Shown here: positions 16,043-30,564 of the stretch, in pieces
How positions within the stretch are numbered: the first letter of the stretch is position 1
Layout: every line of letters starts with the position of its first letter
Origin: Patescibacteria group bacterium
GTDB taxonomy: Bacteria; Patescibacteriota; Patescibacteriia; UBA10025; JAHIVO01
Length of the DNA: 34,941 nt
Assembly: GCA_018816445.1 (NCBI GenBank)
Contig: JAHIVO010000019.1
Location: forward strand, 1 to 34,941
Reading direction: 5' to 3'
Notes under the pieces: model-generated
What the model was told of the DNA's origin: nothing
Seen by the model: only the letters and a program-made list of their open reading frames with translations
The model's database searches: none
Position numbers and translations under genes: made by a program

Positions 16043-17053
16043 ATGGCTAAAACATTAACTATGCCTACTTATCGGATCGTATTAAAGGAGGCATTTGATA
16101 TTGTCAAAAAGAGAAAGTTCTTATGGGTGTTTGGGTTTTTTGCCGCTCTGCTGGGAGCAGGGGGCGAGTTTGAAACTTTATTTACAAGTTATTCAAATTT
16201 GGCCCAAACATCAACTGATATTTTGAGCGTGCAATCGCTTTATCAGGGTGGTGTGATCTGGAGCATGTTTACGAACGTTAAGTATTTTATCGGTACGTAT
16301 CCATGGCAGACTTTTATTTTTATCCTGATGTTTGTGGTTTTAGGGCTGGTCCTGCTGTGGTTAGCAATCATTTCCCAAATTGCCTTATTTGATGCTGCTG
16401 CTAAATTCAAAAATAACAAAAAAGTTGGCTATGCTGAGGGGTATAGGATCGGCAATAAATTCTTTGGTCCGGTATTCCTGATTAATGTGGTGGTAAAAGT
16501 AATCCTTTATTTCCTGTTTATTGCGGTTAGTGCTCCCTTAATAACCTGGTTTCTGGTTGGAAACAGTGTTTTGGGAGGAGTAATTTTTATCATTTTGTTA
16601 TTTTTACTTTACATTCCTTTATCAATAATCGCGGCCTTTGTTGTAAAGTATACAGTTGCTTACATTGTGATTAAGGATAAAAAATGGCAGGAAGCAATTA
16701 AGTTGAGCTGGGAATTGTTCAAAAAAAACTGGCTCACAACCATTGAGATGGCTTTCATACTTTTGGTTTTTGGGATTTTAGTAGGCTTGGCAATAATTTT
16801 ATTGGTCGGAATTTCTTCCATTCCGTTTATCCTTATCAGTTTAGTAGCAATATTTATAAATTCCAGTTTATTATTTAATGCGGCCACGTTTATTGGAATA
16901 ATTGTTTGGTTTATAATAATTGCTATTCTTGGTGCGGCTTATGTGTCTTATCAGTACACGGCTTGGACATTGTTATTCCTCAAGCTGGTTGATAGAAAAG
17001 CGGAGAGCAAATTAGTGCGCTGGTTTAGCAAGATAGTTCCGGATAAGGCTTAA
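16043..17053 (+). CDS. Polytopic membrane protein of unknown function
   Basis: 336 aa with multiple hydrophobic segments; textbook AAGGAGG SD before ATG. Confidence 0.75.
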   Translation: MAKTLTMPTYRIVLKEAFDIVKKRKFLWVFGFFAALLGAGGEFETLFTSYSNLAQTSTDILSVQSLYQGGVIWSMFTNVKYFIGTYPWQTFIFILMFVVLGLVLLWLAIISQIALFDAAAKFKNNKKVGYAEGYRIGNKFFGPVFLINVVVKVILYFLFIAVSAPLITWFLVGNSVLGGVIFIILLFLLYIPLSIIAAFVVKYTVAYIVIKDKKWQEAIKLSWELFKKNWLTTIEMAFILLVFGILVGLAIILLVGISSIPFILISLVAIFINSSLLFNAATFIGIIVWFIIIAILGAAYVSYQYTAWTLLFLKLVDRKAESKLVRWFSKIVPDKA

Positions 17054-17101: not shown

Positions 17102-17138
17102 TCCTAAAATGCGCGTAGATGGATTAACCTCCACTTTA

Positions 17139-17200
17139 CCTGCCTGCCGCCGTGCTCCGCCACAGCGTGGCTACGCGACGGCGAGTACGGAGTTAGGTAG
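17139..17200. repeat. GC-rich palindromic element, left arm
   Basis: CCTGCCTGCCGC...GCCACagcGTGGC...GAGTACGGAG; ends are shared, inverted, with the element at 17343-17406. Confidence 0.7.
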
Positions 17201-17212
17201 AATTTCGTTTAC

Positions 17213-17288
17213 TGGTGGGCGTAGATGGATTTGAACCATCGACCCCCACTTTATAAGAGTGGTGCTCTAACCACTGAGCTATACGCCC
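17213..17288 (-). tRNA. tRNA-Ile(UAU), CCA encoded
   Basis: GGGCGTA/TACGCCC acceptor, D-arm GCTC..GAGC, anticodon arm CCACT-CTTATAA-AGTGG, T-arm GATGGTTCAAATCCATC, then A-CCA. Confidence 0.9.
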
Positions 17289-17342
17289 ACCAGTAAACGA
17301 AATTAAATAGCAGATTTTAATTATAAATATATTTCTTTTGTT

Positions 17343-17406
17343 CTATGCTCCGTACTCCGGCCCGCCCGCTCCGACTCGCGGAGCGATGTCGGGCGCGGCA
17401 GGCGGG
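17343..17406. repeat. GC-rich palindromic element, right arm (inverted relative to left)
   Basis: CTCCGTACTC...CGCTCCGactcgCGGAGCG-type core...GCGGCAGGCGGG. Confidence 0.7.
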
Positions 17407-17421
17407 TAAGAGTGGTGCTCT

Positions 17422-17462
17422 TTGTCCGCCGAACCCTGAATTTGTTTCAGGGGAAGGAGGAT
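17422..17462. repeat. Palindromic insert in the D loop of the outer tRNA-Ile copy
   Basis: CCCTGAA...TTCAGGG hairpin between two tRNA-matching pieces. Confidence 0.65.
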
Positions 17463-17473
17463 AACCGACTGAG

Positions 17474-17529
17474 TCCCGATCGCCGATTCGGCGATCGGGG
17501 ATCCTCGATTACGCAAAGCGGAATCGGGA
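17474..17529. repeat. Palindromic insert with terminal inverted repeats TCCCGAT/ATCGGGA
   Basis: Contains GATCGCCGattCGGCGATC-type palindrome; lies between two tRNA-matching pieces. Confidence 0.65.
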
Positions 17530-17617
17530 CTATATGCGTATGAGATTTATGCTAGTTTTTTTAGTATATTCTAAATTATTGATATGGTAAAGTGAGTCAT
17601 AATGGCTCACCCTTTTT

Positions 17618-29990: not shown

Positions 29991-30126
29991 TTCTACGTTC
30001 CGTGGAACATTATATCCCCTTAATAGCTTGCATCAAAGGCTGATAAATCTTTAGTGGACAATGCATATCTAATTATTACTTATATAGGCCTTGGTAGTTC
30101 AATGGATACCCCGCCCGCCTTAGCGA

Positions 30127-30198
30127 GCCCTCGTAGTTCAACGGATAGAACAAAGGACTCCTAAGCCTTAGATGTAGGTTCAATTCCTGCCGAGGGCA
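30127..30198 (+). tRNA. tRNA-Arg(CCU)
   Basis: GCCCTCG/CGAGGGC acceptor; anticodon loop CTCCTAA; T-arm GTAGG-TTCAATT-CCTGC; CCA not encoded. Confidence 0.88.
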
Positions 30199-30235
30199 GT
30201 TAAGGCGAGCGGGGCGGGGAACATAAGGACTCCTA

Positions 30236-30345: not shown

Positions 30346-30419
30346 GGGCCATTAGCTCAATTGGCTAGAGCGCTACATTCGCATTGTAGAGGTTACCGGT
30401 TCAAGTCCGGTATGGTCCA
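30346..30419 (+). tRNA. tRNA-Ala(CGC)
   Basis: GGGCCAT/ATGGTCC with G3:U70; anticodon arm CTACA-TTCGCAT-TGTAG; T-arm ACCGG-TTCAAGT-CCGGT. Confidence 0.9.
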
Positions 30420-30440
30420 AATACCCGTACGCTGGGCAGG

Positions 30441-30498
30441 TTGCAGAGGTCGCCAGTTCGTTTGTCCTGATGAATATCAGGAACTCTGGCTAGGTCCA
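30441..30498 (+). pseudogene. 3' half of a tRNA with a palindromic insert in the T loop
   Basis: GCCAG-TTCG[TTTGTCCTGATgaatATCAGGA]ACT-CTGGC then TAGGTCCA. Confidence 0.65.
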
Positions 30499-30564
30499 AA
30501 TTTAGTGAAATATTTGTATTACTATTGGATATTGTGATATTCTATTAATAATCGTAATGATTAT

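Follow-up and report, generated by a model that had tools for sequence, protein, structure and literature searches.

The stretch that we analysed (the window, 34,941 nucleotides) is contig 39 of the 1.34-Mb genome of a Patescibacteria group bacterium, which is assembled in 97 contigs and has 42 tRNA matches. On the minus strand of the window, an intact tRNA-Ile(TAT) gene lies within a broken copy of a tRNA-Ile gene. The pieces of this outer copy are collinear with the intact gene and enclose it. The features of this locus, and of a second nested locus in the window, are as follows.

17213 to 17288, minus strand: intact tRNA-Ile(TAT), the inner (current) copy (ARAGORN; Rfam RF00005, 77.9 bits)
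17201 to 17304, no strand: perfect 23-bp inverted repeat (17201-17223 and 17282-17304) by which the acceptor stem of the intact tRNA is lengthened (repeat search; fold)
17530 to 17539, minus strand: outer tRNA-Ile, piece 1, ACGCATATAG (sequence; syntenic break between TAG and CTC in the relatives G001 and G002, with a family II hairpin)
17474 to 17529, minus strand: insert 1, 56 nt, a family II double hairpin (TCCCG..CGAGGATCC..CGGGA) between tRNA positions 10 and 11 (pattern matches; flanks)
17463 to 17473, minus strand: outer tRNA-Ile, piece 2, CTCAGTCGGTT (spliced alignment)
17422 to 17462, minus strand: insert 2, a 41-nt hairpin in the D loop (fold -15.8 kcal/mol, z -4.5)
17407 to 17421, minus strand: outer tRNA-Ile, piece 3, AGAGCACCACTCTTA, ending within the anticodon (spliced alignment, 15 of 15 identical)
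17139 to 17406, minus strand: insert 3, 268 nt, between anticodon positions 35 and 36, with GC-rich inverted-repeat ends around the intact tRNA
17110 to 17138, minus strand: outer tRNA-Ile, piece 4, the 3' part, lacking about 9 nt of the T arm (spliced alignment)
30088 to 30235, plus strand: second nested locus, tRNA-Arg(CCT) at 30127-30198 within a broken Arg copy with pieces at 30088-30108 and 30219-30235 (spliced alignment, score 40.3)

A first-pass annotation of this sequence had described the four outer pieces on the minus strand, and our alignments confirm their positions and their collinearity with the intact gene. It was also correct about the lengths of the inserts (56, 41, and 268 nt) and about the longest one splitting the anticodon (TA on one side and T on the other), and the nested Arg locus that it described is confirmed by the spliced alignment listed above. 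The fragments stand out from shuffled sequence, which that annotation had named as the comparison that could undo its reading: the spliced alignment of the last three outer pieces scores 41.1, as compared to a maximum of 26.0 for 200 shuffled queries (mean 17.3, sd 2.1), and the opposite strand gives just 16.0. These comparisons rule out a chance alignment. The first piece has only 10 nt and is too short to be significant by itself, but at the syntenic locus two relatives (G001 and G002) carry the same type of hairpin at the same place (TAG followed by TCCCGA...TCGGGA). Each of the three inserts is an inverted repeat, and the ends of the third (17136-17150 and 17395-17409) are 93% complementary by repeat search. 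The first-pass annotation did not mention these inverted repeats, the 23-bp repeat around the intact tRNA, or the extent of the pattern across the genome. When the three inserts (17139-17406, 17422-17462, and 17474-17529) are excised, ARAGORN does not detect a tRNA. This is because part of the T arm has been deleted and because the acceptor arms of the outer copy now pair poorly, so we view the outer tRNA-Ile as a decayed copy. Elsewhere in the window, by tRNA-Ala(CGC), there is a second Ala-like 3' part (30403-30501; GTTGCAGAGGTC.CCAGTTC...GAACTCTGGCTAGGTCCA) whose T loop contains a small hairpin; this part forms a direct repeat.

With the neighbouring gene (16043-17053) as a guide, we identified the corresponding tRNA-Ile(TAT) locus by synteny in five relatives. 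Two of these (G004 and G005) have one clean tRNA-Ile, adjoining a tRNA-Val. In G003, the anticodon of the outer tRNA-Ile is split, with an inner tRNA-Ile lying in between. The acceptor stem of this outer copy (GGGCATG/CATGCCC) is the same as in the clean gene of G005, while the inner gene has GGGCGCA/TGCGCCC. Over 59 bases, the outer copy shares 54 with the clean gene of G005 and 52 with its own inner gene, which is a slight difference and lies mainly in the acceptor stem. The other two relatives (G001 and G002) have broken copies of tRNA-Ile with a family II-like hairpin between positions 10 and 11, as in the window. The clean and nested states at this one syntenic locus are a comparison between genera, at a locus without a nuclease gene.

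Misassembly at this GC-rich locus had been raised as a possibility in the first-pass annotation, and the host genome is indeed split into 97 contigs. But three other genomes are nested or broken at the syntenic locus, of which two are assembled in just 3 contigs, and similar broken copies are present in dozens of independent genomes. Because independent genomes share the nested architecture, misassembly is excluded by synteny, and we give an assembly artefact essentially no weight.

At four loci outside the window, the outer tRNA can fold once the inserts are removed, and its anticodon is that of the inner tRNA: Leu(TAG), Gly(GCC), Cys(GCA), and Glu(TTC). At the Leu and Gly loci, the stems of the outer tRNA are unlike those of the inner one yet are still complementary, so these outer copies were formerly working genes. 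Wherever a broken copy was restored, there was an intact tRNA for the same isoacceptor, either inside the broken copy or directly beside it. At several Glu loci, the inner copy matches the outer one exactly over the part that was compared. It might be argued that the hairpins are introns, so that the outer tRNAs are transcribed and spliced and these are functional nested or intron-containing tRNA genes. The precise excision at these four loci would fit, and the anticodon loop is a usual site for introns. However, the outer tRNA-Ile of the window does not yield a tRNA, many other outer copies are incomplete, and an intact gene is always available. Also, at gathering thresholds, Rfam has only tRNA matches in the window, with no match to a known RNA family or to an intron in the inserts. 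We consider introns to be a very improbable explanation.

To see how widespread the broken copies are in the host genome, we aligned every tRNA, with long inserts allowed, to both strands of 26 tRNA regions (the flanks of genes called by ARAGORN). On the strand of the tRNA, 22 fragments scored above our threshold of 30, and these were in 16 of the 26 regions; there were none on the opposite strand. Together with the shuffles and the opposite-strand score for the tRNA-Ile pieces, this bears out the first-pass view that the pattern is not due to chance. Collinear fragments around or beside intact tRNAs also occur in many relatives. In our pooled loci, 62 of 160 tRNAs have broken copies, but this is not a prevalence because many of the loci were chosen on the basis of a nuclease gene or a hairpin. 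Separately, about a dozen intact tRNAs of the host genome (for example Tyr, Asn, Arg(TCT), Thr(GGT), and Leu(CAA)) are flanked by inverted repeats that lengthen the acceptor stem; these were identified by eye, with no comparison to chance.

We mapped 81 breaks within tRNAs by pooling the host genome with related loci, and we compared their positions to a uniform expectation. In the anticodon loop there are 29 breaks, where 9.4 would be expected, and in the D loop there are 18 (11.3 expected), while the T loop has 10 (9.1 expected) and is not enriched. Breaks in stems are few, except in the 5' D stem (5 observed, 4.7 expected). The counts for the anticodon and D loops support the suggestion that tRNA loops are preferred. 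The sites at which inserts recur are between positions 10 and 11 (in the D stem), in the D loop, in the anticodon (between 34 and 35 or between 35 and 36), and in the T loop. No target duplication is visible in the cases of insertion that we tested.

The inserts at the other tRNA loci of the host genome are mostly single or double hairpins. Across 49 short inserts, folding is better than in mononucleotide shuffles (mean z of -3.3, with 71% below -2). Many of the inserts are double hairpins, which form recurrent families. Members of family I have two hairpins of 6 bp each, typically TCACCC-loop-GGGTGA CCACCC-loop-GGGTGG, and are usually found between positions 35 and 36 or between 34 and 35. 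In 16 examples, 192 of 192 base pairs form, as compared to a maximum of 166 in shuffles, and many of the pairs have changed on both sides (compensatory changes); the arms were aligned by hand, one bulged T was removed in locus L084, and the sequences are not independent. Family I thus consists of two adjacent hairpins whose structure is retained despite changes in sequence. Family II is TCCCG-hairpin-CGAGGATCC-hairpin-CGGGA, and its sole pattern match in the host genome is insert 1 of the window (17474-17529). The pattern occurs in 18 of 286 genomes of the class, while a reversed control pattern has 0 matches. Counting nested start points of one element once (by hand), there are 20 distinct elements, of which 13 lie within 350 nt of a tRNA and 9 have left and right flanks (AG and C) that fit tRNA positions 10 and 11 in one orientation or the other. 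Several matches to the pattern have no relation to tRNAs. For example, genome G070 has near-identical short family II-like double hairpins at three places far from tRNAs (L181, L197, and L204), in the context CTCGGG/../CAGGG, and these are perhaps a non-tRNA branch of the family.

REP palindromes, with their dimers, are known mobile DNA of bacteria (PMC3733652). The hairpins might be REP-type palindromes that were moved by RAYT transposases (Y1, IS200-like), with the GIY-YIG genes that we describe below as independent passengers. The host genome has six matches to Y1_Tnp (on contigs C7, C36, C46, C48 (two), and C88). On the other hand, at the four Y1 loci that we examined, ARAGORN detects no tRNA, two have no hairpin by the scan that we used, and none has a match to the core of the hairpins from tRNA loci. 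That core, CCCGTCNNNNGACGGG, has 10 copies in the genome, and all 10 are within 375 nt of a tRNA gene, although by our arithmetic such ground is only about 2.6% of the genome; REPs, in contrast, are generally dispersed. The association of the nucleases with tRNA isotypes (see below) would also be left unexplained. We consider this explanation unlikely, and we rejected RAYT as the mover of the hairpins, as the loci examined show no visible link between the Y1 genes and the hairpins.

Besides the hairpins, many of these loci contain a small nuclease gene. The host genome encodes ten GIY-YIG domains, of which one is in a 595-amino-acid UvrC-like protein and nine are in small proteins. Seven of the nine small genes are within 430 nt of a tRNA, and several lie between the broken and the intact copy of that tRNA. 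(The tRNA-Ile locus of the window does not contain a GIY-YIG gene.) The small proteins have a single domain, are UPF0213/SLX1-like and about 90 amino acids long, and match PF01541 above the cut-off; among solved structures, UPF0213 proteins and SLX1 are the nearest. The Y-x-G, R, H, E, and K columns are conserved in most of 54 tRNA-linked GIY-YIG proteins. A search with the protein from a Glu locus gave 33 loci, in groups of Patescibacteria and in Bacteroidota, Elusimicrobiota, Omnitrophota, and Firmicutes. Many of these loci, from Patescibacteria and Bacteroidota, share a layout: the 5' part of the tRNA, a double hairpin, and the next few bases are followed by the GIY-YIG gene and then by the whole tRNA, or else the mirror image of this. 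The homologs in Companilactobacillus have no tRNA near them and look like ordinary genes of the UPF0213 type. When we searched with the protein from a Leu locus, there were homologs in 246 of 286 genomes of the class, and in most of 30 loci that we examined, there was a tRNA close by.

Of the GIY-YIG genes, 57 have a tRNA within 400 nt, and all 57 are on its strand, mostly less than 50 nt away from it (three of the 57 rows repeat the same genes of the host genome). The tree that we built without the three repeat rows is short and not fully resolved; on it there are 23 changes of tRNA isotype, as compared to 36.2 in shuffles (minimum of 31 in 2000). Ten proteins that are linked to tRNA-Glu form a group that spans Patescibacteria and Bacteroidota. 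The lineage of the nuclease tracks the isotype of the tRNA. Upstream of a tRNA-Ser(CGA) (locus L049, contig C48), there are two successive broken 5' parts of tRNA-Ser, each followed by a GIY-YIG gene, and the nearer gene has an internal stop codon; it is as if two rounds of invasion were stacked.

These loci have two associated components: hairpin inserts and, in many cases, a small GIY-YIG gene on the strand of the tRNA. We think it probable that the tRNA gene at the locus in the window was invaded repeatedly by members of a family of tRNA-specific selfish elements, made up of double hairpins and a homing-type GIY-YIG gene, and that the product has since decayed. We infer that the hairpins are mobile and that the GIY-YIG protein cleaves DNA. 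The nuclease would cut the tRNA gene of a naive genome, or exploit breaks there, and repair would then copy the element in, as with free-standing homing endonucleases. As the tRNA gene is essential, the only survivors would be cells in which a working tRNA arrives or is kept. Old tRNA genes would turn into nested wrecks around the current gene. The locus in the window would be a relic without a nuclease, with the outer pieces derived from an older tRNA-Ile and the inner gene being the current one. Three observations count against invasion by such elements. First, there is no GIY-YIG gene at the tRNA-Ile locus of the window or near many of the other copies that are broken by hairpins. Second, it is not obvious how the inner copy would escape the nuclease at the Glu loci where inner and outer copies are identical. 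Third, the outer copy of G003 is, over its full compared length, hardly nearer to the clean gene of G005 than to its own inner gene.

An alternative is that there is no mobile element and that errors of replication or repair at quasi-palindromic tRNA genes (tandem duplication or template switching) make copies, lengthen inverted repeats, and add hairpins. By nature, tRNA genes are palindromic, and the perfect extension of the acceptor stem of the intact tRNA-Ile fits with a product of template switching. But it is hard to see how such errors would give the same insert families at the same positions in distant genomes, or the strong association with nuclease genes, so we doubt that they are the explanation. 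The first-pass annotation had suggested a process that acts via DNA hairpins or cruciforms. Because the inserts are hairpins, a process that is linked to structure is plausible. The recurring insert families, the GIY-YIG genes on the strand of the tRNA, and the clean and nested states at a syntenic locus argue for insertion of a mobile element rather than passive copying through cruciforms, and plain duplication is not supported either.

A more specific version of invasion by selfish elements is that they are a natural homing-and-rescue drive of bacteria: the GIY-YIG nuclease, with its double hairpin, would cut a specific essential tRNA gene at the anticodon and would supply a whole replacement for the same isoacceptor. 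We see this as a tentative proposal, which could be right but which we would not bet on. If it is correct, then the host could not lose the element, and, over repeated rounds, nested tRNA loci would be left behind and the tRNA repertoire would be replaced.

Genes for tRNAs rank with the most conserved and essential of all, but in these genomes, the wreckage of earlier copies is found at many of their loci. If selfish elements are responsible, then Patescibacteria and Bacteroidota, at least, have members of the family, and there is one more example from Elusimicrobiota. They would explain the replacement of tRNA genes as well as tRNA fragments that confuse annotation, they might be a natural counterpart of cleave-and-rescue drives, and they would be a source of small isotype-linked nucleases that are open to direct testing.

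Among open-licence papers, we did not find any description of this combination in bacterial chromosomes, and the proposed family of tRNA-invading elements would be new in its combination of features. The closest functional parallel is SegB of T-even phages, a GIY-YIG homing endonuclease that is tied to tRNA genes, breaks them, and drives their inheritance or amplification (PMC2988022, PMC13096335). As in the loci that we studied, the genes for SegB and other free-standing GIY-YIG enzymes of T-even phages lie among tRNA genes. Unlike SegB, the loci here are chromosomal, with single-domain UPF0213/SLX1-like proteins of about 90 amino acids, double-hairpin inserts, isotype-specific lineages, and nested broken copies, and homing is putative. 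The mobile hairpin elements of mitochondria (double-hairpin elements and the RHE of sponges) are short, vary in sequence while conserving structure, and have spread through the genome (PMC2800124). Our inserts are similar in being short hairpins, including double hairpins, whose structure is conserved over their sequence, but they are in bacterial chromosomes, target tRNAs at recurrent positions within the gene, and have a linked nuclease gene. REPs and REPINs with RAYTs are also short bacterial palindromes that are often paired, and REPs have an unpaired GTAG or CGTC tag at one end (PMC3733652). The hairpins described here differ in that they are confined to tRNA loci and are not visibly linked to the Y1 genes.

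Two other kinds of insertion also bear comparison. Intervening sequences of 23S rRNA are hairpin inserts in the loops of a structured-RNA gene, sometimes with a small protein gene (S23-type proteins), while here the target is a tRNA, and a second, intact copy lies within it. Integrative elements whose attachment sites are tRNA genes insert into such a gene by means of an integrase and restore a working tRNA, usually at one end only; in contrast, our loci have the whole tRNA and are broken in loops, and their linked nuclease belongs to the GIY-YIG type. We also noticed two genes for four-helix-bundle proteins of the 23S rRNA intervening sequence type (PF05635) between tRNA-Thr(TGT) and tRNA-Trp (locus L031, contig C5, 3318-3632 and 3936-4232, minus strand). 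In the host genome, 2 of 7 genes of this type are beside tRNAs, where they might be another cargo.
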